Origin: a virus
Length of the DNA: 22,034 nucleotides
Direction: 5' to 3' (one strand)
Virus record (IMG/VR): IMGVR_UViG_3300023184_000569
Span: 1 to 22,034 of that record
Positions within the stretch are counted from its first letter, which is position 1, and the number at the start of each line of letters is the position of its first letter. Shown here piece after piece: positions 331 to 22,032 of the stretch. A program made the position numbers and the translations under genes. The notes under the pieces are model-generated. The model saw only the letters and a program-made list of their open reading frames with translations, was not told where the DNA came from and searched no databases.

Positions 331-343
331 TTATAAACTATGT
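320..343. repeat. Perfect inverted repeat over two abutting stop codons
   Basis: Ten-base arms (320-329 and 334-343) are exact reverse complements around a 4-base ATTA loop. The repeat contains the TAA of the upstream plus-strand gene and the TAA of the minus-strand sigma gene. It could fold in either transcript and act as a bidirectional 3' end. No clear T-tract follows on the plus side, so intrinsic termination is uncertain. Confidence 0.55.
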
Positions 344-696
344 AACCCCTGACCATCATTAGAACCTTCAATGGAGATAACTTTAATTAAATTATCGTTA
401 TCTCCTTTTTTCTTGTATAATTCATTAAAACCTTTAGCTATACCTCGTTTAAAAACTTCTGTAAAGTAAGCAAAAGCATTAACAGATTTCTCTTCATTAA
501 AATTATACCAATTTTGGAACATATCTAAAAGTCCAGATTGATAACAATCCATTTTATCATCATTAGACCAATATCTCATCTTTTTAATGGTTTCTTTTGC
601 TAGGAGCTCTAGCATTTTTTCTGATTTTCTAGTCAAACGACCTTGGGCCTTTGATATAATCATTTCAACATATAAGTCTTTATTATTAAGATACAT
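331..696 (-). CDS. gp55: Late-transcription sigma factor, T4 gp55-like
   Basis: This 121-residue protein begins with MYLNNKDL, close to the YVNNKEL near the start of T4 gp55. Residues 43-97 (WSNDDKMDCYQSGLLDMF, then WYNFNEEKSVNAFAYFTEVFKRGIAK) match the gp55 core with its helical NFDE...PHAYIT pattern, the sigma region-2-like part that binds RNA polymerase core. In T4, gp55 recognises the single TATAAATA late promoter element and works with the sliding clamp and gp33. Here it would switch the host polymerase to the structural genes around it. It is clearly shorter than T4 gp55 (185 aa): the region after the KKKGD at 95-99 is only about 20 residues and ends GLHSL, so the C-terminal beta-flap-binding extension is short or different. 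Its stop touches the convergent upstream gene. No Shine-Dalgarno precedes the ATG. Confidence 0.85.
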   Translation of the reverse strand: MYLNNKDLYVEMIISKAQGRLTRKSEKMLELLAKETIKKMRYWSNDDKMDCYQSGLLDMFQNWYNFNEEKSVNAFAYFTEVFKRGIAKGFNELYKKKGDNDNLIKVISIEGSNDGQGLHSL

Positions 697-4582: not shown

Positions 4583-7500
4583 TTACGATGGGTAATAAGA
4601 TTGTGTTATAACAGTCAATCCAGATACTGAGTTAGTACCGAGTTTTAGTCCTGTAACATCCTGTAACATTTGATCAGTCTCTTGTAGTAACCCAGCTCTA
4701 TATCTAAGAACATATGACTGTGTAGAAGTTAAACTATTATAATATGTTACAAATAATAGACGAACATCAAAGTTAGTACCTGTAACTCTATTTTGATAAT
4801 ACACATAACCGAAAGGACCTAAATTAGTATTGAATCCTTCAACAACTTTTTGGAAGTTATCTCCATAGATATAGTTATCAGAAGACTCTATGATATTGAT
4901 ACCATGTTGTGAGAATGTTGACCATTTAAAGTCTTGTGCTTGGTTACCATATGTTGGCCAATTTGTGAATGATTGTGTATAAGACCTTATATTAGATAAT
5001 CCAGCTGATGATCTGCTATAAATATAGTAATATTGAGGATTTAAATTACCAACAGTAGAGAATGTTAAACCATAGTTCTGACCGGTTGATAATCTAGCAT
5101 AAATATTATAAGAACCATTCGAAGAAATAGGAATTAATCCTTGGTTATTTGCAGTATTAACAGAATCTCTCCAGAATGCCTTACCACCAACTGCAACATC
5201 ACCTCTAATCTCAATAGAAACAGTACCACTAGGTGGTAAATTACCTGTCCAATTTAGCTCATTGCTCATAACATACGCAGAACCTATGTTTGAAACAACA
5301 TAAGGATTTTGAACATATGTGAAATCACCACTTAATTCAATTCTAAAATTATTAACAGTGAAGCTTGAATTGTTCTCTATAACATATGGATATCCATGTT
5401 TTATACGTGGATAGATTATATCGTTAGAACTATTTAAGTAAGGTCTATCAGTATAATTACCGTGTATATCCAAGAATCCTTTTGTAAATGGATAAGATGT
5501 CATTGTTAGATTAGGAACCTTATCAATATCAGCATAAACAATAGGAAGTGTAGCATCTCTATATTGTTTTGTAGTCAAGTTAGTAAATGCTTCAATTTCT
5601 TGTATATCCAATATACCCTTAATCTCAAAGTTCTTTCTATCTCTGTAAATCATACCATATCCATTATCCGATGTAACTTCAATAACTAAATATGGTGTTA
5701 TATTTGAATCAATTGTGAAGTTGAATGGATTTAAATTATCAATGAATCTATATTCTGATATTTTATCAACAGGAACTAAATCGATTTCTTTCCATTCAGT
5801 TATATCCAACCAATTAGAACCTACTCCCTCATCCAGGACTGGAGAAACTATCGAACTGGTAGCACCACCTTGTTCTGTCCAAACATATATTAACCTGTTG
5901 TACTTGACAACATCTCCAATTTTATAGGATGTTCCATAAAGCCATGTTTCAGCATTTTCAAATTTTCTAGGATTATTAGTTTTGTTATTAATAATAACTG
6001 ACTCATATAATTTATCATAATAAACAACTCTTTCTTCGACTTGATAGTTTCTAAAAGCATACCACTCTCTATAGATCTCATAAGTTCTAATATCTACTGT
6101 GTAGTAATCTGGAAGTAAACTTGATGTTGCTGATCCGGAGATATAAAAATCCAAAACACAGTTATATACAGTAGAACCACTATTAACAGGTAATAAATAA
6201 GCCTCATTCAAATCGAAAGTTATTGGTGTGAAGTTCTGTTTAATATTAAAAAACTGAGCATCTCGTGACTGATGAACCACAGTAGTACCACCAACAAAAT
6301 CAGCTCTACCAGTTATATCCAATATTTTGTGTGTAATTGGTATGATATTTTTCTGTAGCCAATATTTTAATCCTTGTAACTTCTTCTGAACCTCTTCAAG
6401 AGTATAATAAAGAACATTATTACCCTCTTTATCTGTAATTCTAAATGTCAAATTAAAAAGATTTGTATCTTCAAATTTAGAATTCGGAAAAGTATGTTTT
6501 ATAAAATCATTATCCTTCCAACCCTCAACAGTATTATCAAATATATCAGGTATTTCAACTTTAAATAACTTAGAATAATTCTCAGACTCAACATCTACAT
6601 TTCGATAATACTCATTTAATTCTAAATCATTATATCCAAAATAATTAATAGCATTTATTATAGACTTATAACTTCCAATATATGGATATATAAGATTCTT
6701 CATCATCAACATCTCTTTTCTCTTAGCATTAAGATAGTTCCAGTCTATGCCTTCTTCTTTTATGTCATATTCTTTGAATATATAAACATCATCAGATGAT
6801 ATTAATTTACCAACATTATTCAACTCAACGTGATATCTAATATCTTCTATTTCCGTCTGAGCCAATACATTAAATCTACCTACTTCTCTATTCCAAACTT
6901 TAAATCTACAAGATAAATATGTTGTTAAATATGTTTTTGGGAAATCGTTAATTATTGTAGATTCAGTTTCAAGTGAGTCAACATCTTTAAAGTAATCAAC
7001 AATAATCTCTCTACTAAAAACGCTTCTTATTTTAAGAAGATAACCATTATTATTTGATAAATATTGTTTTTTAGTATTTGTAACATCTTTAATAAAGATA
7101 GCTAGATGTTGTCCAACCTTTAGACCTCTAAAATTACCTAAAGAGTCAGTTGTAAAATAACTTGTAGAATTCTCTGGTAATGAAATTATACCATACCTAT
7201 CACCAGAAAATTCATCAAATATTGTTTCAAATGAAACAATATCATTATTATAAGAATTGGTTGTTATTGTGAAGTCCACATATTCTTTTTTATAAACCTG
7301 CAAGACGCTTCTAAGAGCACCTTCATCAGCAGAGTTGAATCCAATAAAAAGTTGTATAGGCTCTGGAACAACACTAACATCATTATTATCATCTATAAAC
7401 TCAAGATTATTCTCAACAACATCAAAAATAGTTTGTTGATAATCAGGAATAGATATTTTAGTTAAGTCTTTATTAGGTTTTCTATTTAAAATTGTTGTTT

Positions 7501-10500
7501 CTAATGGTTTCTCACCATTGTAAGCTAAAATTCCAGCAGTTGGTAACTGATCGCCTGTAAAGTCATACATGAAAAACTGAGGAACATTATCAGAAAACCA
7601 TTTCCAGTATAAACTAACAGTTGGTCCACCATTGAAATTCTCACGAGGTCTTCTTATATACTCACGAACATTTAACCAAAGATAATCTCTGTCAACATAA
7701 TCAGATGCCAAAGTTCCATAAAAATTATCATTAGATGACGTAGGACTTAGTGTATCTAGATTAAAATAACTTCCTAGATAAACTTGAACCTCAACAACTT
7801 GCTCACTATCTGGTTGTATTGCCCAAATACTTCTTCTATCAGGATTATAAATCAACTTAGTTAATATACCACCAGAAAATGGCTCATTATGTTTTTGTTG
7901 ACCTGTTGCGGAGTCTATAACTAAAATTTGATTATTAGCACCAATATAGATATCACCATCAAACTGATTTAGGGCTTGATTACCATAGTCAACGGGTGAT
8001 GATGTGTAGTTAATAGCATCAGTATCAACATAAAGTGATGTAAAAATAACATCGGTTGATGAGTTCATAGTACTATTCAAATTATTAAATAATAAACTAT
8101 TAAAATTACCACTTGATACAGAAGGAATATCAATAATAGTTCCATTATCGATTTTCTTTAGATTTGAGCCTTCAGCAAATAGATAAATAGATTCATTTTC
8201 TGGATCGTATGCAATGGAATTAGTAGCGACTAAAATACTATAAGTATAATCAATTGTTCTTGAACTACCATCTATCTTCAAAATAGCAACCGAGTCTGTA
8301 GTAACATACATATCTGATTCAAAGTCATTGAAGACCATGTTATAAGTATAATATGGTGTGGTATTAATTATTGTTGGACTTGTGGATCCAACCGGATAAA
8401 CATATATCGAAGTATCATTCTCAAACGACACATAGATATCACCATTACTATTATTCAATTGTATAGCATAAGCATCTGAAGCAAATGAATAAGATGCGAT
8501 AAGTAAGTTTATAAAAGGATCTACCTGATATAGAGTATTTTTAGATAAGGCATAAACATAGTTTGAAATACTATTATAACATAATCCTATACTTTGTGTT
8601 ATACCAAACAATAGATCAGTAGTTACTGTTCCATAAAAAGAATCAAAAACTCTTAGTTGATCACCAAGAACATATATCGAATTAACTGGCTCAACATAAG
8701 TTATATCAACCATGTTATTAACACCACCATACTGATAAGGTATATAAGTATTACTAAAGATATACTCAATACTAAAACTAGCCGTAAATGCAAGTTTATC
8801 ATACATACCTCTAAGAAGATCTGGAACCCAAGCTGGAGGACAACCAGTTTGACCGAAACCAATAGTAAAAGCTACAGTTGTGAACGCTGAGTTATTACAC
8901 AAAGAATCGGTAAGACCCCAGAATGGTCCCTCATAGCTTAGGTTTATAACATCAGGATTTAAATAAAGTGAATTAAATTCTATATTTTGTAAAGTATAAT
9001 AGGTCTTATTTATACCAACTACTTGACCAGTTGCAAATCCAACCTCTTCTAAAGATTCTCCACTAGCTGTTCCTAACAATATCTCATTAGAAGTTATAAG
9101 TGGACCGTGATTTCCACTATATTTTTTTATTATACGATAAGTGTCTATCCCAGGCAATGATGACTTACCAACATTAATTTGTAAATTAACTCTTTGTTTT
9201 TGTTTTTTAATATTAAACTTTAACGCACTAGCCGCATTTGAAACATAAATTCCAAAGTCGTTAATTGTTTCAGCCCAATTTTCAACCCAATTTCCAAGAG
9301 TAGTTGGAATATCGACAATACCACCACTATAAATAACAGTTTCCTCATATGACCTACCATTAATGATAATAGATAAGAATTTACCCATATCATAAAATGT
9401 AACGATTGAATGTTCAATATAAAAATCAGCAGTTGTTCCCACCTGAACAGTAAAATCAATAGGAACATTTGGAAAATCTGTACTTAATTTTATTGAATTG
9501 TAATAGACCGATGTATATCCGACCGTAATCAATGTTGGTAAAATACCAAGTGTATTTAATGTAAGAAAGTGTCTTGTTAACCAATTTCTTAAAGTCTTAT
9601 CAATAGTTCTTTGCATATCAACGAGACCAGATGAGTAAACCCATGCCACTCTCTCACTATAAACCATTTTATTTATCTTAATAAGTATTCCAAACTCATC
9701 AATATCTGTAAAGACTATACTATATTCCCAATTACTTGAGTAATCATAATTAAACTCTTTTACAAGTCTTTCATAAGTTTCAATACACTTTTCATAAACA
9801 TACTTAACACCACCTATACTATAAGAAGGTCCTACCTCATTATAATAATAATTGACAGTTGCGTAATCTGTTGGATATATTAGGTCAGCTTTTAATTGAC
9901 TATCATCATAATATAAATCTATATTAAAATACTTTAATTCGTCTTTAAACTTCTCAGCTGTAGTTGCTAGTGTTATTGCGGTTGATTGTGTATAAGACTG
10001 TGTAAAATAAATATGATCACTTGTTAAATATATTTCACCACCTACCAAATATTCTGAAACTATAGCTCCTGATGTAGAAGATGGTTCGATTGATAAATAT
10101 GTTGGTAAACTCCAATATAATAAAGAAGTTGTTGTTCCTGTAGGATAAATAGAATCGGTAGCACCAGACCAAGTATATGATTGTATGCACTGATATATCT
10201 CATTATTCCAAATAACTTGACTTCCAGTTGCATAATATGTTAGATTAACATTGCCTCTAAAAGAACTTATTGAAGAAACTTTAAAAAAGTCAAAATTCAA
10301 AGATGAATTAGGAACTTTAAATTCAGTACCCGGTTTCAAAATAGTTGGAACTGGATCTCCAAATGTTAATGACTTAGCAGTTGAATCAAATGTTATAGGT
10401 CCTCTATAAACTCTAGGTAAGTCTGTCTTAGTTATAACTTCTAATATAAGTGTAGAATCGGTAGGTAAGAATTGTAAATCATATTCAAAATGTAGAACAT

Positions 10501-11227
10501 CATAGATATTAGGATTCTTTATCGTAACAACATCAACATCATGATATCTACCAGTTTTTCTATAACTATCATTTTTTTGAGTATTGATTAGATTTAACTT
10601 TCTATATTGATAAAGTCTATCATAAAAAGTAGGCTCATTCCAAATAGATAAAGTATCTCTTAGTTGAGGAGTTATATAGTTATAAATACCTATTATATCA
10701 ACACCTTCGATTGTTACACCATCATAGCTTGAAGTTAATCCATATGATCCACTATAAGTATTCTCAAAAGCTTCGTTATTCATCAACGAAAGTATTAATA
10801 CAGCTCCTTTTTTAGAACCAACTACCGAATATACTCTATTCGGATCAGTGAATTCAAATATTGGACTATTGAATCTTAAAAATGTTCCTAATTTATATCT
10901 AGCTTCTATGTTTTTACCATATACCCACTTAGAAAAATAATTTTGCTCCTGGTTTACTGGTTCAATTTTAGTAATTGAATAAGTAGCAACACCTTGATAA
11001 AAGTGAAATCCAAACTCATTAAATAATTGAAATCTTCTTAAACTTAAATATGATTGATTCTCATACTCAAATGCAGGTATCTTCTCAAAAAGATAAAGAG
11101 CTTGTGTCTTAAATGTATCATTTGAGCTCTCAGGGAAAAGAATGTCACCCTCATATCTCTCGGATGTTTCATTATAATAAAAATTTAATGGATTTCCTTC
11201 TTTATCAAAGAATATTAAGTTCTGCAT
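4583..11227 (-). CDS. Giant tail/baseplate structural protein with probable beta-propeller and carbohydrate-binding-like segments
   Basis: This single 2214-residue frame covers 30% of the window. It is rich in Tyr, Ser, Thr and Asn with many short beta strands, as in phage tail and baseplate surface proteins. About residues 840-1152 contain seven repeats of the form [hydrophobic]-x-N/D-x-x-x-x-x-[IV]Y[VA]...[hydrophobic]-D (for example VNSIYVLGDQLRVFD, SNYVYALSKNTLYQVD, NGDIYVSFEND, ESDMYVTTDSVAILKID, ENESIYLFAEGSNLKKID, DGDIYIGANNQILVID, DRRSIWAIQPDS). This is a YVTN-type propeller. Segments near 337-379 (WNNEIYQC...W) and 1719-1817 (two repeats with V-x-Y-x-x-x-x-Y) resemble type-3 chitin-binding folds. 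A block near 1524-1542 (SIINAINYFGYNDLELNEYY) looks conserved in large phage baseplate proteins. It could be a gp7- or gp10-like wedge part or a fibre anchor; I cannot decide. It is next to gp25, which supports a baseplate location. Confidence 0.8.
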   Translation of the reverse strand: MQNLIFFDKEGNPLNFYYNETSERYEGDILFPESSNDTFKTQALYLFEKIPAFEYENQSYLSLRRFQLFNEFGFHFYQGVATYSITKIEPVNQEQNYFSKWVYGKNIEARYKLGTFLRFNSPIFEFTDPNRVYSVVGSKKGAVLILSLMNNEAFENTYSGSYGLTSSYDGVTIEGVDIIGIYNYITPQLRDTLSIWNEPTFYDRLYQYRKLNLINTQKNDSYRKTGRYHDVDVVTIKNPNIYDVLHFEYDLQFLPTDSTLILEVITKTDLPRVYRGPITFDSTAKSLTFGDPVPTILKPGTEFKVPNSSLNFDFFKVSSISSFRGNVNLTYYATGSQVIWNNEIYQCIQSYTWSGATDSIYPTGTTTSLLYWSLPTYLSIEPSSTSGAIVSEYLVGGEIYLTSDHIYFTQSYTQSTAITLATTAEKFKDELKYFNIDLYYDDSQLKADLIYPTDYATVNYYYNEVGPSYSIGGVKYVYEKCIETYERLVKEFNYDYSSNWEYSIVFTDIDEFGILIKINKMVYSERVAWVYSSGLVDMQRTIDKTLRNWLTRHFLTLNTLGILPTLITVGYTSVYYNSIKLSTDFPNVPIDFTVQVGTTADFYIEHSIVTFYDMGKFLSIIINGRSYEETVIYSGGIVDIPTTLGNWVENWAETINDFGIYVSNAASALKFNIKKQKQRVNLQINVGKSSLPGIDTYRIIKKYSGNHGPLITSNEILLGTASGESLEEVGFATGQVVGINKTYYTLQNIEFNSLYLNPDVINLSYEGPFWGLTDSLCNNSAFTTVAFTIGFGQTGCPPAWVPDLLRGMYDKLAFTASFSIEYIFSNTYIPYQYGGVNNMVDITYVEPVNSIYVLGDQLRVFDSFYGTVTTDLLFGITQSIGLCYNSISNYVYALSKNTLYQVDPFINLLIASYSFASDAYAIQLNNSNGDIYVSFENDTSIYVYPVGSTSPTIINTTPYYTYNMVFNDFESDMYVTTDSVAILKIDGSSRTIDYTYSILVATNSIAYDPENESIYLFAEGSNLKKIDNGTIIDIPSVSSGNFNSLLFNNLNSTMNSSTDVIFTSLYVDTDAINYTSSPVDYGNQALNQFDGDIYIGANNQILVIDSATGQQKHNEPFSGGILTKLIYNPDRRSIWAIQPDSEQVVEVQVYLGSYFNLDTLSPTSSNDNFYGTLASDYVDRDYLWLNVREYIRRPRENFNGGPTVSLYWKWFSDNVPQFFMYDFTGDQLPTAGILAYNGEKPLETTILNRKPNKDLTKISIPDYQQTIFDVVENNLEFIDDNNDVSVVPEPIQLFIGFNSADEGALRSVLQVYKKEYVDFTITTNSYNNDIVSFETIFDEFSGDRYGIISLPENSTSYFTTDSLGNFRGLKVGQHLAIFIKDVTNTKKQYLSNNNGYLLKIRSVFSREIIVDYFKDVDSLETESTIINDFPKTYLTTYLSCRFKVWNREVGRFNVLAQTEIEDIRYHVELNNVGKLISSDDVYIFKEYDIKEEGIDWNYLNAKRKEMLMMKNLIYPYIGSYKSIINAINYFGYNDLELNEYYRNVDVESENYSKLFKVEIPDIFDNTVEGWKDNDFIKHTFPNSKFEDTNLFNLTFRITDKEGNNVLYYTLEEVQKKLQGLKYWLQKNIIPITHKILDITGRADFVGGTTVVHQSRDAQFFNIKQNFTPITFDLNEAYLLPVNSGSTVYNCVLDFYISGSATSSLLPDYYTVDIRTYEIYREWYAFRNYQVEERVVYYDKLYESVIINNKTNNPRKFENAETWLYGTSYKIGDVVKYNRLIYVWTEQGGATSSIVSPVLDEGVGSNWLDITEWKEIDLVPVDKISEYRFIDNLNPFNFTIDSNITPYLVIEVTSDNGYGMIYRDRKNFEIKGILDIQEIEAFTNLTTKQYRDATLPIVYADIDKVPNLTMTSYPFTKGFLDIHGNYTDRPYLNSSNDIIYPRIKHGYPYVIENNSSFTVNNFRIELSGDFTYVQNPYVVSNIGSAYVMSNELNWTGNLPPSGTVSIEIRGDVAVGGKAFWRDSVNTANNQGLIPISSNGSYNIYARLSTGQNYGLTFSTVGNLNPQYYYIYSRSSAGLSNIRSYTQSFTNWPTYGNQAQDFKWSTFSQHGINIIESSDNYIYGDNFQKVVEGFNTNLGPFGYVYYQNRVTGTNFDVRLLFVTYYNSLTSTQSYVLRYRAGLLQETDQMLQDVTGLKLGTNSVSGLTVITQSYYPS

Positions 11228-11284: not shown

Positions 11285-11297
11285 TAATATATAATAA
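11285..11297 (+). promoter_or_regulatory. Candidate late promoter element for the 11312-13783 operon
   Basis: TAATATATAATAA, 14 nt before the ATG at 11312. It shares the TATATAAT core with the element before the tail tube gene. It would drive all five co-oriented genes, which have no other intergenic room for a promoter. Confidence 0.35.
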
Positions 11298-11311: not shown

Positions 11312-11890
11312 ATGAAATATATTAAAAGATTCAATGTAGAAGAAGCTATTTCTGAGCATCTTCAATATCACATAAACAATGATATGTCTATTACTGAAAA
11401 TATATTCAGATATGGTTCAGAATCTTACTTTAATCTTTTAAAAGAATCTAGAGAACTATATGATAGAGGATTAATTGAGTTATCTGGTCATGATAAAGAA
11501 CTTTTTGAAAATTCAGATATCGGAAAATTTGAAATGTTTGATGGAGAATTGGTTCCACTTGATTTACCATTAGAGATTATGGAGGAAATTAATGAGGCTG
11601 AATATAAAGGAAGAGAGGTTGAATTGAACCATCCAACAAGGAGCTCAGGCCCAAAGAAGTATAAAGTATTTGTTAAGAATCCAAAAACTGGAAATGTTAA
11701 AGTGGTTCATTTTGGAGATGTTTCGGGTGGATTAACAGCAAAAGTATCTGATTCAAAGGCTAGAAAATCCTTTGCGGCTCGTCATCAATGTCATTTGAAA
11801 AAGGATAAAACTAAACCAGGATATTGGGCATGTAGATTAAATAAATTTGGTCATCTTTTTGGCGGAAAAACTTATCCTGGATACTGGTAA
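11312..11890 (+). CDS. Candidate head-targeted protein with a KTKPGYWxCR C-terminal domain
   Basis: The 192 residues fall into three parts. Residues 1-16 (MKYIKRFNVEEAISEH) form a basic-amphipathic leader with possible ISE cleavage at 13-15. Residues 38-88 (SYFNLLKESRELYDRGLIEL, then SDIGKFEMFDGELVPLDLPL) form a small acidic domain of a type seen in T4-like phages. Residues 114-178 (KKYKVFVKNPKTGNVKVVHFGD...KARKSFAARHQCHLKKDKTKPGYWACRLNKFG) match a short domain that recurs in T4-like phage proteins and has no firm function. Cys160 and Cys174 with nearby His could bind metal. The protein ends KTYPGYW, repeating the PGYW of the domain. It is the first gene of a five-gene run; the next ATG starts one base after its TAA. 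Confidence 0.85.
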   Translation: MKYIKRFNVEEAISEHLQYHINNDMSITENIFRYGSESYFNLLKESRELYDRGLIELSGHDKELFENSDIGKFEMFDGELVPLDLPLEIMEEINEAEYKGREVELNHPTRSSGPKKYKVFVKNPKTGNVKVVHFGDVSGGLTAKVSDSKARKSFAARHQCHLKKDKTKPGYWACRLNKFGHLFGGKTYPGYW

Positions 11891-11891
11891 T

Positions 11892-12698
11892 ATGAAACAT
11901 CTAAAATCATATAAATTATTTGAAAACTCATTCTTCACAATAAGTGAGGATAGAAGAAAAAAGTTAATTAACTTTATAAATAGTAGTCTAGACGGCACTG
12001 ATTTTGATTTTTCTTCTTGGATATATCAAAATATAATTAGAGGAAAAGAAGAACATACAGAACTTAATGATTTTATTCAAAAAGTATCTCCTAATTGGAA
12101 AAAAATGCTTGATGAGTACTTATCTAAGTATAAAAGTGGAGTAATGAAAATTGGACAAGATGATCAAAATGAGTGGTTTGGAGTAAATTACAACTCAAAT
12201 CTTAAACAAAAAGAAGTAAAAGGAGATCTTGAAATAACAAAAAATTTTTATGTAACATTTGAAAAAAGTGAAGATAATTTGAAAAGATGGTTTAATGGTC
12301 TTGCATCTCTTATAAGTGACTTCTATAAGGCTTGCACGGAAGGTGAATTAAAAAACTCTGCAATTTCTTTTAAATGTGGATATGATGCCAAACATTTTAT
12401 TGAAGACAATGACCATTTAAAGTTTTATTGGTATAAAGATGAAGATAAAAATAAGGTATTAGAATTATATAATAATTGGTTGAAGAAAACTGGTATAAAG
12501 ACTCAAAAAAGAGCTTACGATTTTGGAATAGATACTGCAAAAGGTAAAGATAAAAACAGTTTTGGATTAATGGTTGCAAATAAGGTGAATGATCAATTTC
12601 AAAAACTCAAATCACAATATGGTAAAAAGTTTACTGCCGATCAATATGTAGATTACATAATAGATATGTTAAATAAAACAAAGTTTAAAATTGACTAA
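11892..12698 (+). CDS. Candidate head-packaged protein with leader peptide; HopA1-like layout (tentative)
   Basis: This 268-residue protein starts MKHLKSYKLFENS, almost the same leader as the protein at 13098, with a possible prohead-protease site after LFE (9-11). I chose the ATG at 11892 because the leader begins there and the junction TAA-T-ATG with the upstream gene is tight; an in-frame start at 11847 would lie inside the previous gene. The mature part is alpha/beta and soluble. Its second half has a strand (NFYVTFEKS), a helix, a strand (SAISFKCG), a DNDHLKFYWYKD block, another helix (VLELYNNWLKKTG), then FGIDTAKGKDKNSFGLMVANKV. This order of strand, helix, FK, charged-hydrophobic strand and SFG resembles HopA1-family effectors. 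That match is by eye and weak. Otherwise the function is unknown. Confidence 0.82.
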   Translation: MKHLKSYKLFENSFFTISEDRRKKLINFINSSLDGTDFDFSSWIYQNIIRGKEEHTELNDFIQKVSPNWKKMLDEYLSKYKSGVMKIGQDDQNEWFGVNYNSNLKQKEVKGDLEITKNFYVTFEKSEDNLKRWFNGLASLISDFYKACTEGELKNSAISFKCGYDAKHFIEDNDHLKFYWYKDEDKNKVLELYNNWLKKTGIKTQKRAYDFGIDTAKGKDKNSFGLMVANKVNDQFQKLKSQYGKKFTADQYVDYIIDMLNKTKFKID

Positions 12699-12699
12699 T

Positions 12700-13101
12700 A
12701 TGAAAATAAAAAAATTTAACGAATCAAATTCAGATAAATTAGATGAAGAATATTTATCATTCATATTTAGTGAGCTCATTGATAATGAAGCGGAGGTAGA
12801 GTCCGAAGAATTAAAGTCACAAAAATATTGGCATATATTTTTAGAAGAGCCTCAATTAAACTTAAAATTTAATTCGATTGACGACTACACAAAAAGTACA
12901 GAGGAAATATATAATTTTTCTAAAGAATTAGAATCATGCTTTAAAAGGATAGATGACGATTTCCCTGATGCTAAATATGAAATTGTAATAGAAGAAATAA
13001 TAGATGAAAAAGGTAATTATATATTTGATAGAGGAATTGATAGAGACTTTGAATTTCCAAAGAAATTACAAAGAATAATAATAATCACATTTAATTTATG
13101 A
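12700..13101 (+). CDS. Small unknown protein with short leader peptide
   Basis: The 133-residue protein begins MKIKKFNESNSDKL, a shorter version of the leader on its neighbours, with a possible cut after FNE (6-8). The chosen ATG repeats the TAA-T-ATG junction of the gene before; a TTG nine bases upstream is in frame but overlaps the previous stop. The body is acidic: an N-terminal helix (EEYLSFIFSELIDNE), a helical middle (SIDDYTKSTEEIYNFSKELESCFKRI) and two terminal strands (KYEIVIEEII, QRIIIITFNL). The overall helix-strand order and the I-x-I-x-F ending resemble the next gene product, so the two may be distant paralogues. No known family recognised. Confidence 0.8.
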   Translation: MKIKKFNESNSDKLDEEYLSFIFSELIDNEAEVESEELKSQKYWHIFLEEPQLNLKFNSIDDYTKSTEEIYNFSKELESCFKRIDDDFPDAKYEIVIEEIIDEKGNYIFDRGIDRDFEFPKKLQRIIIITFNL

Positions 13102-13520
13102 AGTATCTAAATAATTATAAATTATTTGAAAATTCAGAATATGACGATGCTAAAGAGAATTTAGAATTTATTTTATTAGATATAAAAGATTTAGGACTGA
13201 ATTATTCAATTTTTGGAAGAAGTAAATTTTTAGACAATCCCGGTGAAATGTGGTATAGAAATACTAAAGTTGAAAAAGGTTTTAAGGAATATATAAGCCT
13301 ATCAATTGGAACAAGAAAAGATTGTATAGATGAAATTTTAGATATAATAAAAGAATGTATTAATTACATGACAAATAATGATTGGAAATATAGTACAAAA
13401 ATAGATAGAGGTGTTAGTATGGTTGATATAGACATACATCAAATAGTTCCTTTATTCAATCAAAATAGAGATATTACAAAATATTTAGGACAAATACATA
13501 TACACTTTTGGAAAATATGA
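13098..13520 (+). CDS. Small unknown protein with leader MKYLNNYKLFEN
   Basis: The 140-residue protein overlaps the previous stop by 4 nt (ATGA), implying translational coupling. The leader MKYLNNYKLFENS matches that of the protein at 11892 in 9 of 13 residues, and the first 39 bases match in 32 positions. The body is a small alpha/beta domain: helix (DDAKENLEFILLDIKDLG), strand (LNYSIFG), strand (EYISLSIG), helix (CIDEILDIIKECINYM), strands and a final GQIHIHFWKI. No catalytic motif is evident. The shared leader and operon place it with the possible head-packaged proteins. Cleavage after LFE (9-11) would leave a mature chain of 129 residues. Confidence 0.82.
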   Translation: MKYLNNYKLFENSEYDDAKENLEFILLDIKDLGLNYSIFGRSKFLDNPGEMWYRNTKVEKGFKEYISLSIGTRKDCIDEILDIIKECINYMTNNDWKYSTKIDRGVSMVDIDIHQIVPLFNQNRDITKYLGQIHIHFWKI

Positions 13521-13783
13521 CACTACCATTTAAAGAAGAACAGGTATCTGAAAATAATTTCATCAGAACATTCTATCAAGATGTTGATTCAGGAGATTTA
13601 TATTGGCATCGTGATTTTGAAGATAGAATAATAGAATCAATTGAAGAAACTGATTGGAAATTTCAACTAGATGATAAATTACCAATTAATATAGAAGGTG
13701 AAATATTTATACCAAAGGGTTTATATCATAGAATAATAAAAGGAAATGGTGATTTAAAAATTAAATTAAAGAAACTAATTTAA
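13517..13783 (+). CDS. Small conserved phage protein with WHRD and H-containing C-terminal strand (cupin-like barrel possible)
   Basis: The 88-residue protein overlaps the previous gene by 4 nt (ATGA). A TTG nine bases upstream is in frame but unnecessary. It carries LYWHRDFEDRIIESIEETDWKFQLDDKLPINI (28-59) and IFIPKGLYHRIIKGNGDLKIKL (63-84), a pattern I recognise from short hypothetical proteins in many phages (WHRD-x-EDR, TDW-x-x-Q-x-D, LP, HR-x-IKG-x-GDL). The strand pattern and the late IPKG-x-x-H are cupin-like, suggesting a small beta barrel, but metal ligands are incomplete. Unlike the four genes before it, it lacks the MK...FE leader. It ends directly against the convergent nuclease gene (stops at 13781-13783 and 13784-13786). 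Confidence 0.8.
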   Translation: MTLPFKEEQVSENNFIRTFYQDVDSGDLYWHRDFEDRIIESIEETDWKFQLDDKLPINIEGEIFIPKGLYHRIIKGNGDLKIKLKKLI

Positions 13784-17130: not shown

Positions 17131-20100
17131 TTATGAGTTAATGAATCCACCTGCTGAAATTGCTCCAGTTCTAAGTATTGTGATGTTGTTCACAATGATA
17201 CCCATACCCTTGATTGGTTCAACATAAGTGTCAAGAACACCAATTTGATTATCAATGATTTCTGCCGTGTTGTTCTCTTCATCGATCTTATTGAAGTAAT
17301 TGTAAAGACCGTTTTGAGCCACATATTTCTCACAAATAACGTCAGCTTGTAACTTGATTTGTGCTCTAATTTCTGCTGTGTTGAATTTCCATTGGAAGTC
17401 TAACAACATTCTAGATAACTCTCTTTCAAGTTCAATCAATACCTCTCTTACGTGGATAAGTGAAAGTGCTGACTTGTAAAGTACTTGAGCTGTATTTTCA
17501 GTCTCAATTACGAATCCTCTATTTCTCTTGAAAGTCAATGGATTCATTTGAGCTTGATTTAAATACTCAAGATCAGAAGGAGTGAATATCTGCTCAAGGT
17601 CTTGTATACCAGTAATTCTACCGTTATTAACACCCGCAGCGATTGTCCAAGGAACAATACTTGTAGTAGTACTATTATGTTTTCTCATAAAAGTTAACCC
17701 TACATATGAAGATGGTGGTACATCGATTGGTCTACCAAAATCATCAATTGTTACATATGGTAAGAAATAACCAACAGAAGTTACACCAGTACCTTTACCA
17801 AATGAGTAAAGGAATTCAGGATTACTTTCTGGGTCACCACCCTTAGCAATATACTCAAGTTGTAGTGTTCCATTACCATCTTTAAATGTTGGGGAAACTG
17901 AATTCTTGAATGTTTTCAATGATGGCATATTCAAGATACCAAAAGCATCTAAACGGTCACCACATATATCAACCAATTGTTGTTTAGAATCTGGTGTTAA
18001 ACCAAGACCAAAAGAGTCAATTAAATATCTGAAGTCAAATGCTTCTTTATTTGTTAACGCTTTGAACAATGGTGTTCCTTTTGTAACAACATCAAGTATA
18101 GCTGATTGTTTTGCTTCAGTACCATCTGGTATAGATGCTTCTCTAATTCTAAATCCTTTAAGTGATATTGCCTTATATGTTGAAACATAATCTTCAATCT
18201 TAGTATATCTATTAGTTTGTTTATCTCCATTAAATGTTCTTAACTTAATAGATGAATCACAAGATAACTCTACATATTCGCTATTGACAGACCAAACTTT
18301 CTTAGTTTGTATTCTTGTAAGCTTTTTCGGCATCTGGTCTGCTTTTAATAAAGTAGGATCATAAGATGCTTCAAGATAATCTCCAACTTTAACTTCTGAG
18401 TATCTACTTCTCTTAACAAGAATCTTATTTGGAACTGCCACCCATCCTGATGGATATTCAACTTCAACAGTTTGTTTGAAATTACTCTTTGATGATTTAA
18501 CATAAAGTATACCATTAGTAGCAAGTGCACTATCAGTAGTAGGATTAACAGAGCTTAATACTGACTGAGTTCCTAAATTATAGTTTTCAAATGTAACAAC
18601 TAAATCTCCGTTATCTTTTTGATAAGGTGCTAAATAAATTGGACTACCATTAAATTGAGTATTGTAACCATATAATTTACTTATATTGATTGTTTCATCA
18701 ACAAGTGTTTCATAAACTTCATAAGCGTAGAAGCTATAAGAACCGGTGTCAATAGTGTTGATAACTCCACCACTATAAGTTCCTAATAAAGCCGCTCTGC
18801 CTGGGATACCTAAATCACCCGTAGCATCACCTGGTAACTGTAATCCATTTTCTACAGTCATACCCTCGTCATACTTTATCTCAAATGCTCCACTGTTATT
18901 AACACCACCGATTAAGAATTGATAACCTAAAACGTCAGAACTTCTATCTCCTTGATAGTCATTCAACTCTTGGAAGTATGCGTTATTTTCAGTTGCATAA
19001 TTTCCACTTTCATCGACTCTAAATATAACATAGTTATATCCAGATAATGAAGCTGTAACACTAGCACCAGGTACAAATTGTACTTGAACACCATCCCAAA
19101 TCTCATTTTGATAGAATACATCACCTGTTCCCACCAAACCTTGGTCATATTTTGTATAGAATTGTGAATATTTACCAACAACACCAAATGATGCAGTAGT
19201 ACCATCCAATATTGGTAAAGTATTTTTAGTTTCAAAACCAGCGTAGTCAATTAAGAATTCATCATCTAATTTGTAGAATACAAGTTCTCCGTCTTCAACA
19301 ACATCTTGAATATCAGCATATGTCAATCCAGTTCTAACGACAAACGACTTATTAACAGTAGCTCCAGTTTTAATATCACTGAATGTTACTTCTGATAAAC
19401 TCTTTTTAGTAGTTTCATAGTTAGCATTTCCACTACCACCAGGGCCTAATAACATAAGTCCTCTAGATGTAGTACTTGTATCAATATAAGATAAAATTGA
19501 ATTAAACATTTTAAATCTTCTATATTGTTCATATTCTTTAACATCTGGTGTAGAGTTGGTATCTAAGAATTCAACTTTGAAATCTCCCTCGTTCAATGTT
19601 AATTGAGGAGTTGAAGCTGTGCTGATTATATAATCACCACTATTTGAGAATTCCATTGTAACGTATGCACTTGAACCACCATTACTTGTAGAATTTATAG
19701 TCACAGGATTATCATTTTCACTACCTGGAACAAATAGACCATTATTTAACTCAGCATCACCCCAATGTAAAACTATATCAGTAGCAGCAACAGTTGCCTT
19801 TGAAGAAGTAGCGGTTGATACTTTAACAGTAATATTTCCACTTGATTCAAGTACAAAAGCCCAATTAAATGAATTAGTACCTGAAATACTTGGGAATGAA
19901 CTAGCTTTTAATTCAACAGAATATGTACCAGATAGAGGAACATAATTTCCACCAATAATAGCATAACCATTATCAGAAGTACTATCTACAGTATATGTTC
20001 TTGTCCAACTTGTAGTTCCAGTAGTAACAAAACTAGGACAGTGAAGATCGTTTACATATCCTTCTGCGAACCAATAGGTTCTATTAGGATTTGCGATATA

Positions 20101-21342
20101 TCCTAAATTTTCTCCCGATAAAACACCACCTAAAACAGTTCCTGTGTTATCATTATAAGAGTGCGGATACTCACCATCTGGACTGTTCTTTAATGCTGCT
20201 GCATTATAATCAGAAAATAAAGCAACTACGTTACCTGGTCTATCTAACACTCTATTAGGAAATGTCACCGTCTCAGTAATTTGTTCTTTATAAGATAAGA
20301 AGTTAATTGATAGTTCACCATCAATATTACCATCATTTGAATCTAAAGATTGATAATATGTCTCGTCTAAAGATGGAGGATTACTTAATAAGTCATCCGA
20401 AACTAAACCATTTCCAACTAAGTCAACAAGACCTTTTGGATAATCTGTTTCAAATAAGTCATTATTGAACGCACAAAATAGACCAGTTCTATCTGTTTCT
20501 CTGTTTATAACAGTTTCAACAAAGATATTTCTACCATTTAAGTCTCTAAAGTATGGAATCATAGAAAGTCCTTCATAATATCCTAATAGAGTTACATTTC
20601 TATCATTAGCGAAGTTTCTAATTTGAGATTTTTTAAGACCATCTGCTGAAAAATAGGCTGTCCATCTTGGATCAACTGACAATTCTTGGTAATTTGACCA
20701 ATCTCCACCAACTACTATAACATCAACTAAATAGTCAGATGCTAAATCTGTAGGATATAAATAAGGTGGAAGTTTTTCGATAGAACCATACCATTCAAGT
20801 AACGGTCTATCAAATCCAGAAACTGCAGATTTAACACAGAATACTGTTACAAATTTATCAGATAAGTTTGTAAAATTTAATACTCTACCCTCATATCCAG
20901 AGTTTGATTTTGTTGCATCAATGAATGCATCTGTATCTCTCTTCCAAAATCCAGTTGTGTCGAAATATTTTCTGTATGCTGCTGTTCTCTCAACGTCATT
21001 GTTATAAATTGGAGAAGCTGATAATGATTGATACTCAACAGTATCAAGAGCATCATCAGTCAACAATAGGTTAACTGCGTAGACAGGAGCTGCCTCTAAC
21101 ATTTTAGAAATGGTTCTGTGGAAGAATGATCCTTTTCTCTCTAATTGTCTATCAATAGAACCAAAGATTCTTTCAAGATCACCAACAGTCTTTAATAATA
21201 CTGCTGAGTTAACTGGACCTTTTTTAGAGAATCCAATAACCAAATTAGCAAAACCCTCCACTGTTGGACTTGTAATAATCGATTTGTCAATCTCTTCTAT
21301 AAAGATTCCTGGTCTTTTGTATTTACCGATTTGAATTGCCAT
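17131..21342 (-). CDS. gp18: Tail sheath protein, T4 gp18-like, greatly enlarged
   Basis: The N-terminus (YKRPGIFIEEID, 8-19, then VIGFSKKGPVNSAVLLKTVGDLERIFG) and the C-terminus identify a contractile sheath subunit. The C-terminal domain is complete: SYVGLTFMRKHN, PWTIAAGVNNGRITGIQDLEQIFTPSDLEYLNQAQMNPL, RGFVIETENTAQ, HVREVLIELERELSRMLLDFQ, then an amphipathic end. This region interlocks neighbouring subunits around the tail tube. The total of 1403 residues is about twice T4 gp18 (659). The excess lies in the middle and is beta-rich and Ser/Thr/Gly-rich; about 451-581 looks like an immunoglobulin-like or jelly-roll module (GTYSVELKASS, NFWAFVLES-type strands, SGDYIIS). Such domains sit on the outside of the contracted and extended sheath. 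The gene has no Shine-Dalgarno and is its own unit behind a TATATAAA element. Confidence 0.95.
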   Translation of the reverse strand: MAIQIGKYKRPGIFIEEIDKSIITSPTVEGFANLVIGFSKKGPVNSAVLLKTVGDLERIFGSIDRQLERKGSFFHRTISKMLEAAPVYAVNLLLTDDALDTVEYQSLSASPIYNNDVERTAAYRKYFDTTGFWKRDTDAFIDATKSNSGYEGRVLNFTNLSDKFVTVFCVKSAVSGFDRPLLEWYGSIEKLPPYLYPTDLASDYLVDVIVVGGDWSNYQELSVDPRWTAYFSADGLKKSQIRNFANDRNVTLLGYYEGLSMIPYFRDLNGRNIFVETVINRETDRTGLFCAFNNDLFETDYPKGLVDLVGNGLVSDDLLSNPPSLDETYYQSLDSNDGNIDGELSINFLSYKEQITETVTFPNRVLDRPGNVVALFSDYNAAALKNSPDGEYPHSYNDNTGTVLGGVLSGENLGYIANPNRTYWFAEGYVNDLHCPSFVTTGTTSWTRTYTVDSTSDNGYAIIGGNYVPLSGTYSVELKASSFPSISGTNSFNWAFVLESSGNITVKVSTATSSKATVAATDIVLHWGDAELNNGLFVPGSENDNPVTINSTSNGGSSAYVTMEFSNSGDYIISTASTPQLTLNEGDFKVEFLDTNSTPDVKEYEQYRRFKMFNSILSYIDTSTTSRGLMLLGPGGSGNANYETTKKSLSEVTFSDIKTGATVNKSFVVRTGLTYADIQDVVEDGELVFYKLDDEFLIDYAGFETKNTLPILDGTTASFGVVGKYSQFYTKYDQGLVGTGDVFYQNEIWDGVQVQFVPGASVTASLSGYNYVIFRVDESGNYATENNAYFQELNDYQGDRSSDVLGYQFLIGGVNNSGAFEIKYDEGMTVENGLQLPGDATGDLGIPGRAALLGTYSGGVINTIDTGSYSFYAYEVYETLVDETINISKLYGYNTQFNGSPIYLAPYQKDNGDLVVTFENYNLGTQSVLSSVNPTTDSALATNGILYVKSSKSNFKQTVEVEYPSGWVAVPNKILVKRSRYSEVKVGDYLEASYDPTLLKADQMPKKLTRIQTKKVWSVNSEYVELSCDSSIKLRTFNGDKQTNRYTKIEDYVSTYKAISLKGFRIREASIPDGTEAKQSAILDVVTKGTPLFKALTNKEAFDFRYLIDSFGLGLTPDSKQQLVDICGDRLDAFGILNMPSLKTFKNSVSPTFKDGNGTLQLEYIAKGGDPESNPEFLYSFGKGTGVTSVGYFLPYVTIDDFGRPIDVPPSSYVGLTFMRKHNSTTTSIVPWTIAAGVNNGRITGIQDLEQIFTPSDLEYLNQAQMNPLTFKRNRGFVIETENTAQVLYKSALSLIHVREVLIELERELSRMLLDFQWKFNTAEIRAQIKLQADVICEKYVAQNGLYNYFNKIDEENNTAEIIDNQIGVLDTYVEPIKGMGIIVNNITILRTGAISAGGFINS

Positions 21343-21408: not shown

Positions 21409-22032
21409 TTATATTTTACTAGATAGATTTTTAATTTTAGATTCTTCGTCTTTCATATCCTTCTTGAAATCCTCTCTTTTCTTCTGCCAAGATGTTATAT
21501 CTCTTTGTAAAATAGATTTATTTTTATTGATATTATCCTTTAATTCAACTAGTTTTTTTCGATTTCTATCTAAACTAATAGATATCTGATCTTTTCTTTT
21601 TAGTGACAAATCCATTTCCGACTCATCAGTAAGACGATTTATCTCGTCATTTGTCTTCTTAACTCTGTCTTCATCTTCTCCAATCTTTTCTTGTAAAGTG
21701 TTCTTTCTTCTTTCCATCCTAAGAATATTTTCAAAACTTTGAAGAAATCTGTTTCTTTGACGTGTCTCTTTTTTATTTTGATAAACTTTATTCATCAACT
21801 CTTTCTCAAGGTCGGAATCTGACTGAATTTTAGGATCTTTAAAGATAGACTCCATTTGTTGTCTTCTATTCTTAAAATCCTCTAAATTTTTAATAACATC
21901 GGCTAAAACATTCTTCTCAGTATCTTTTGTCTGAGTATCTAATTGAGGATCGGGAGAAACTGATTTAATATCATCAGTTCCAATAGGTTCATCTGCTTCT
22001 AGGAATAGATAAAAATATTTAAGATATTTCAT
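21409..22032 (-). CDS. Coiled-coil protein with capsid-targeting-like leader; candidate prohead core/scaffold protein
   Basis: The 207-residue protein begins MKYLKYFYLFLEADEP, the same leader class as the 11312-13520 proteins, with a possible cut after FLE (10-12). An acidic, Pro/Thr/Ser-rich linker (13-40) is followed by about 160 residues of highly charged Lys/Glu/Asp/Arg helix with heptad spacing (for example NLEDFKNRRQQMESIF, RMERRKNTLQEKIGEDEDRV, LDRNRKKLVELKDNINKNKS), almost certainly a long coiled coil. T4 scaffold and core proteins (gp22, gp67, gp68) are similarly small, charged and helical and are processed by the prohead protease. No sequence match to any one of them is claimed. It precedes the sheath gene on the same strand. 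The start codon is two bases inside the window edge, so a more upstream start cannot be excluded, but the leader match supports this one. Confidence 0.8.
   Translation of the reverse strand: MKYLKYFYLFLEADEPIGTDDIKSVSPDPQLDTQTKDTEKNVLADVIKNLEDFKNRRQQMESIFKDPKIQSDSDLEKELMNKVYQNKKETRQRNRFLQSFENILRMERRKNTLQEKIGEDEDRVKKTNDEINRLTDESEMDLSLKRKDQISISLDRNRKKLVELKDNINKNKSILQRDITSWQKKREDFKKDMKDEESKIKNLSSKI

Follow-up and report, generated by a model that had tools for sequence, protein, structure and literature searches.

A short N-terminal leader resembling the T4 capsid-targeting sequence is common to many different genes of giant phages

The window analyzed here, a stretch of 22,034 bases covering positions 1 to 22,034 of IMG/VR virus record IMGVR_UViG_3300023184_000569, contains four consecutive genes whose products begin with a similar short peptide, hereafter called the leader, and a fifth leader gene elsewhere in the stretch. 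The window is a fragment of a phage related to the megaphages LR745206.1 (W01) and LR756502.1 (W02), uncultured megaphage records that are its nearest named relatives and have tail sheaths 52% identical; megablast of the window matched two records piecewise, at 75.0% and 77.7%. The features of the locus and its surroundings are as follows.

11286 to 11293, plus strand: promoter-like element AATATATA, 19-26 nucleotides upstream of the gene 1 start codon.
11312 to 11890, plus strand: leader gene 1, 192 amino acids, ATG start, beginning MKYIKRFNVEE; leader MKYIKRFNVEEAISE, with the candidate cleavage site [IV]SE before H or N (E14 in MKYIKRFNVEEAISE); C-terminal domain phrog_7595, a family with no function assigned.
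11892 to 12698, plus strand: leader gene 2, 268 amino acids, ATG start MKHLKSYKLFEN; leader MKHLKSYKLFE, then N.
12700 to 13101, plus strand: leader gene 3, 133 amino acids, ATG start MKIKKFNES; leader MKIKKFNE, then S.
13098 to 13520, plus strand: leader gene 4, 140 amino acids, ATG start MKYLNNYKLFEN; leader MKYLNNYKLFE, then N.
21409 to 22032, minus strand: fifth leader gene, 207 amino acids, adjoining the tail sheath gene; N-terminus MKYLKYFYLFLEADEP, leader MKYLKYFYLFLE, then A.
13517 to 13783, plus strand: small leaderless protein, whose gene is the partner of gene 1 homologues in other phages.
17131 to 21342, minus strand: leaderless tail sheath (phrog_34521, 1.7e-89), adjoining the fifth leader gene.
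331 to 696, minus strand: late sigma factor-like protein (phrog_234, 3.7e-7), a context for late transcription.

For genes 2 and 3 the listing of open reading frames has earlier TTG starts, and the ATG starts were taken. To explore how widely the leader occurs, genes of at least 60 codons were called from ATG starts in W01 and W02, and a hidden Markov model (HMM) of the leader (class A) was built from 156 N-termini of these two genomes, with the window excluded, and used at a score of at least 10. A class B matrix of the form [YF]-x-[EQDK]-F-[IL]-[NK]-E-[SENA] was added to the HMM for union counts. The HMM takes 108 of 882 genes in W01 and 142 of 912 in W02; among the internal-methionine controls its hits number 4 of 3076 and 5 of 3253, respectively. 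The union takes 131/882 and 171/912 genes, and shuffled N-termini gave 5.7 and 6.65 union hits, respectively. In the window both the HMM and the union take 5 of the 18 genes, with none of 77 internal-methionine controls, and shuffled N-termini gave a mean of 0.15 hits and a maximum of 1 in 20 rounds. When the glutamate was not presupposed, M[KR][YH][LI] starts were found in 273 of 3397 genes and at 21 of 14495 internal methionines, and a glutamate stood at residues 8-13 in 90% of these gene starts versus 45% of 20 internal ones. The original prediction described four consecutive genes with a leader of the capsid-targeting type, and these are confirmed with their ATG starts; it regarded them as a single operon, and here it has to be revised, since the leader is spread genome-wide in the two relatives and the window has a fifth leader gene.

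The dominant forms of the leader are MK[YH]LKxFNES and MK[YH]LKxYKLFES. Union counts in other genomes were 48/399 in G001, 26/174 in G005, 25/215 in G004, 21/328 in W05, 19/298 in W07, 11/173 in G007, 10/222 in G003 and 33/228 in W06 (the first 200 kb of the 735 kb phage LR756501.1). Low counts were obtained for PTm1 (2/280), Lak-B5 (1/158) and G002 (5/402; shuffled N-termini in G002 gave a mean of 1.35 and a maximum of 3). Phage T4 has three union hits among 240 genes, and two of them are the MKTYQEFIAE starts at 65416 (100 amino acids) and 65834 (193 amino acids), which we take from their leader to be IPII and IPIII. The leader is therefore common to more than 100 different genes in related giant phages.

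Beyond the leader the proteins differ. Iterative profile searches from each body of genes 1-4, run against every called gene of 15 genomes or genome fragments, revealed no mutual link, in agreement with the original prediction that the bodies are unrelated, and the searches found no relative of gene 2. Clustering of 307 leader proteins by a greedy procedure gave 196 families, 109 of them singletons. Adjacent leader genes are frequent (34 pairs versus 9.7 expected in W01; 51 versus 16.3 in W02), and such tandem runs, together with the existence of one large paralogous family, are what would be expected if the leader genes were diverged copies of one ancestor with the N-terminus best kept. The family count, the unrelated Pfam domains of the bodies and the occurrence of the same enzymes both with and without the leader make this origin very improbable, and gene duplication was rejected on the basis of the unrelated domains. 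Gene 4 and its homologue L028 have 200 of 207 body bases in common but just 20 of 30 in the leader; the switch falls at FE-NSE, and the residue pattern is retained in both leaders. Seven homologues of gene 3, 44-70% identical to the window protein, show no variation at residues 1-3 and 5-9, and residues 1-9 are unstructured in its model.

The common start could in principle be a device of the nucleotide sequence, either a cassette of promoter and start codon or a translation signal, and the upstream element that many of these genes have in common fits such a device. We consider it scarcely credible, since related leaders vary in length and sequence with the residue pattern retained, and the leader codons are synonymous mixtures near each genome's own bias, which indicates selection on the peptide; a DNA-level cassette was rejected for the latter reason.

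The leader is a peptide of 10-19 residues that resembles the T4 sequence. Seed leaders nearly always have [LI] at position 4, and 150 of 156 have [YF] at position 7; those of the window have a hydrophobic residue 4 and an aromatic residue 7, followed by FNE or [LI]FE. The class B core, [YF]xxF[IL]xE, has a spacing identical to Y-x-x-F-I-x-E of T4, its third residue before the cut (P3) would mostly be I or L, and LR756500.1 has forms intermediate to the T4-like leader, such as MKYIKEYEEFILEA and MKYIKEYEEFILEANEAK. According to passages of PMC9026906, residues 4 and 7 of T4 IPIII matter for targeting and residues 8 and 10 for processing, and the protease gp21 cuts after L/I-x-E.

Just 22 kb of the phage genome are in the window record, and the head protease was sought in relatives. 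Peptidase_S77 matches were found in 8 of 10 related records (E 1.0e-6 to 1.1e-4), with none of the 10 above the Pfam cut-off, and G001, which Peptidase_S77 missed, has a protease homologue by blastp and is the ninth record. In W01, PHROGs searches identified a head maturation protease (phrog_207, 2.7e-30) at 198546, a capsid protein (3.8e-24) at 200752 and a portal (2.2e-59) at 193127. A gp21-like protease, on which the original prediction depended, is thus present in relatives. It lies in a protein of 690-789 amino acids (198546-200669 in W01; 225272-227371 in W02) with a long, coiled, repeat-bearing and scaffold-like remainder; T4 has separate gp21 and gp22. The capsid proteins of six genomes carry an INE-N site, and the protease proteins of these genomes an [LI]NE-S site beyond the protease part; in G002 the two sites are VNE-N and NES. 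Both conserved sites resemble the end of the leader. Two small proteins, W01_157 (FIE-N) and W02_165 (FNE-D), have the leader joined directly to the arm that follows the site in the capsid protein and, by their sequence, represent a natural exchange at the putative cut.

Other small proteins also share parts of the capsid protein. W01_383 (291407-291880), which carries INEN, and W02_440 (315773-316270), of 157 and 165 amino acids, resemble only its N-terminal region and may represent a second targeting route. Five proteins of 166-277 amino acids (W02_742, W01_742, G001_328, G004_88 and G005_62) have the GMGxV...GSGD arm of the capsid protein with other N-termini. Additionally, a leader protein with an NFACT-R domain adjoins the W01 capsid gene (202508-202897; L079:2508-2894), and its W02 homologue has a different N-terminus.

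The element upstream of gene 1 recurs before leader genes. The AATATATA motif was derived from W01 and W02 and counted in upstream gaps of at least 45 nucleotides, where it precedes 33 of 42 leader genes versus 71 of 299 others in W01 (p 7e-12) and 43 of 52 versus 70 of 303 in W02 (p 2e-16), with a reverse-strand background in the same stretches of 66/341 and 64/355. The enrichment was repeated in G001 (18/21 versus 61/184, p 4e-6), W05 (7/11 versus 12/144, p 3e-5) and G003 (5/7 versus 24/93, p 0.02). The motif also lies upstream of the portal and protease genes of W01 and W02 and of the W02 capsid gene, with a near variant at the W01 capsid gene and both sheath genes. Among the matches listed for the 124 of 134 scanned non-leader genes that carry it are portal, head decoration, tail tube, baseplate wedge and fibre proteins. 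A second promoter-like motif of W01 and W02, TATTTGT[AT], precedes genes of nucleotide and NAD metabolism (77 scanned; ribonucleotide reductase, nicotinamide phosphoribosyltransferase and RNase H are among the matches listed) and only 1 of 42 and 1 of 52 leader genes. Since AATATATA is common to leader, head and tail genes and TATTTGT[AT] is rare before leader genes, most leader operons look late, though those with the RNA ligase in W01 and G004 are exceptions.

The sharing, enrichment and modularity of the leader, its graded T4-like core, the protease family, the end site like that of the capsid protein and the promoter in common with head genes support the logic of a T4-type capsid-targeting sequence. 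We estimate at about 0.8 the probability that the leader belongs to a greatly expanded system of this type, which would fill the head with late-made proteins to be injected. We infer the steps as follows. Cargo genes would be transcribed together with head genes from the AATATATA-type promoter, and two hydrophobic leader positions, mostly residues 4 and 7 as in T4 IPIII, would dock the protein on the prohead core. Cleavage past the conserved glutamate ([FLIY]xE before S, N or A) by the S77-type head protease would follow, and the mature body would remain in the head and enter the host along with the DNA. The five leader genes of the window would belong to a cargo set of roughly 130-170 genes per genome, and part of the cargo is plausibly directed against host defence. 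Subject to the points that follow, the original prediction has stood up to every computational test able to break it; the new part is the scale.

Several observations weigh against this interpretation. When the first glutamate at 8-14 was taken as P1 in 319 leaders, the following residue was S in 132, N in 41 and A in 23, and P3 was F, L, I or Y in 234 and L or I in just 114, so that the strict T4 (L/I)xE rule holds for a minority; the glutamate itself is conserved. The bodies of leader proteins are acidic, whereas T4 internal proteins are basic (stated in part of PMC9026906). G002 has the protease and the VNEN capsid site, yet only the five leaders noted above. The enrichment of AATATATA was not significant in W06, W07, G004, G005 and G007, the motif also precedes PhoH, SbcC and a methyltransferase (among the matches listed) and W01 UvsX, and the RNA-ligase operons of W01 and G004 carry TATTTGT[AT] instead. 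Finally, three families of the peptidoglycan-hydrolase type and the PQ-loop membrane family occur among the leader proteins.

The last point could be accommodated if the leader were a sorting tag for another place, such as a replication compartment, a membrane-associated site or the tail, with its glutamate binding and left uncut. This agrees with the many enzyme types, lysins and a membrane family included, that bear leaders and with cleavage being read from the motif. Such a tag seems improbable to us given that the T4 IP leaders fit the same profile, that the end of the leader matches the conserved site of the capsid protein and a natural fusion occurs there, and that the promoter is common with head genes. 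Membrane segments are also few among leader proteins compared with other proteins in W01 (4/131 versus 65/751) and W02 (2/171 versus 70/741), though without depletion in G001 (2/48 versus 22/351).

Analysis of the putative cargo by Pfam covered 107 of the 108 class A proteins of W01, 135 of the 142 of W02 and 125 of the 131 class-B-only proteins; genes over the borders of 20 kb pieces were dropped (1/108, 7/142, 5/131 and, in the promoter set, 10/134), as was the class B protein L162 (1290 amino acids). The majority of the scanned proteins had no Pfam match, and the window leader proteins had none. The matches listed include tRNA nucleotidyltransferase, NFACT-R, RNA ligase, PPK2, Acb1-like/2H phosphoesterase, NUDIX, Sa_NUDIX, methyltransferases, SET, HNH and HSP20, as well as M15 peptidase, lysozyme, GH108 and PQ-loop.

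The same enzyme families occur with and without the leader. It is present on 5 of 6 PPK2 matches over the cut-off (W01, where a second ATG is needed, W02, G004, G005 and one of two in W06), 3 of 6 T4-type RNA ligases (W01, W02 and G004; not W05, W06 or T4), 3 of 8 CCA-adding enzymes (W01, G001 and G004), 3 of 6 Acb1-like proteins (W01, W02 and W05, but absent from T4 and from a second copy in W05) and 0 of 11 UvsX; the weak matches L294 and L304, below the cut-off, were excluded from the family counts. In the RNA ligases the leader precedes the point where the leaderless W05 protein begins (IPSYEEAV). The W02 CCA enzyme MIITKYAKFLES and the G001 Acb1-like protein MGKIKTYSEFMFISE are carriers by eye that fall below the score thresholds and were not counted.

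Even if the leader is a prohead tag, the cargo might be mainly core or filler for very large heads and not injected effectors, an account that we regard as unlikely and as the strongest of the alternatives. The gene of the 21409 type is conserved next to the sheath, T4 core proteins are likewise cleaved (described in part of PMC9026906), and 52 of the 60 proteins in the largest cargo family bear the leader, all of which would suit a structural role. Set against this are the enzymes of repair or anti-defence families in the cargo and its fast turnover, as a body homologue in W02 was found for 43 of 108 leader genes of W01 versus 407 of 774 other genes. The largest family, that of W01_67, is distributed over W01, W02 and G001 and has no Pfam name.

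Returning to the capsid-targeting interpretation, an effector role of the cargo is held with less confidence than the targeting itself. Families of 2'-5' RNA ligase are hit by the Acb1-like proteins too, in two cases with the better match, so that a function against CBASS (cyclic oligonucleotide-based antiphage signaling system) is only a lead. With somewhat better than even confidence, we suggest that a single short tag at the N-terminus, exchangeable between genes, lets members of this megaphage group load their virions with an arsenal of well over 100 different proteins. RNA-repair enzymes and an Acb1-like candidate against CBASS would be among them, produced late and delivered to the next cell, and the tag would be an open docking code that constantly recruits genes.

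Among the closest known systems is that of T4. Passages of PMC12373910 describe Ip1-3 as injected proteins that block different GmrSD enzymes and have only the leader in common, and a short N-terminal leader on otherwise unrelated proteins is what IPI-IPIII and the megaphage proteins share (parts of PMC9026906 and PMC12373910). The spacing of the core, the targeting residues 4 and 7, the head protease family and the variable accessory genes are further likenesses. The differences are the few carriers in T4 versus 131-171 per megaphage genome, the derived leader forms, acidic bodies and many recognizable enzymes as cargo on the megaphage side, and the fusion of the megaphage protease to a long scaffold-like part. 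The inner-body proteins of phiKZ and the ejection proteins of SPN3US are similar in forming a large head set with gp21-related cleavage and injection (parts of PMC13282480, PMC9026906 and PMC7411985); a short common leader is not in their descriptions in the relevant parts of PMC13282480 and PMC9026906, by which they were compared. Tenacibaculum phage PTm1 also has a one-polypeptide protease-scaffold adjoining the capsid gene, annotated as 'prohead core scaffolding protein and protease', and differs in having no leader enrichment.

In the literature outside subscription papers, most preprints and supplements, we found no capsid-targeting leaders tied to huge phages, and term look-ups for such leaders within parts of PMC13282480, PMC7162821, PMC12363816 and PMC7824862 gave no link to huge phages. 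The idea that S21 proteins of phages carry this leader as their N-terminal extension (a part of PMC7162821) was considered and dropped, the S21 frames being of only 64-78 amino acids in six records. No megaphage had been cultured as of a 2021 paper (part of PMC9723777). Since the leader stands on more than 100 different genes, giant phages may inject far more proteins than thought. If this is true, a tag of 10-15 residues is enough to predict from sequence alone which proteins uncultured giant phages inject, and it turns hundreds of unnamed genes into ranked candidates for host takeover and anti-defence. It would also give a reason for the many small accessory genes that giant phages keep, and a testable packaging code comparable with the T4 system.

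Gene 1 deserves separate mention. The leader length varies among its homologues, but in most of them [IV]SE is kept, followed by H, N or S; the conserved site is thus E14 of MKYIKRFNVEEAISE and not the E10/E11 pair. Four homologues (L039, L030, L034 and L042) have PSE in its place and a longer start. The gene 1 model is moderate (mean predicted local distance difference test 72.7) and has weak strands at leader residues 3-5 and 12-14, so that a free leader is not supported by it. Fold searches gave a best E of 1.2 with the gene 1 model and of 4e-3 with that of gene 3, at a template modeling score to the query of only 0.36-0.45. For the fifth leader gene, 15 homologue entries have like starts, as judged by eye. 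The 2214 amino acid window protein at 4583-11227 had no match in the PHROGs search.

Homologues of gene 1 and of the gene at 13517 are adjacent in Flavobacterium phage immuto, Tenacibaculum phage pT24 and Methylophilales phage Melnitz. This conserved pair encloses the cargo locus in the window, and genes 2-4 therefore look inserted within it. In Melnitz, the C-terminal domain of gene 1 ends a protein of 650 amino acids that starts MKKFSEIIEA, and the neighbours of this protein start MQGFKTFLSEA and INFSKYITED.

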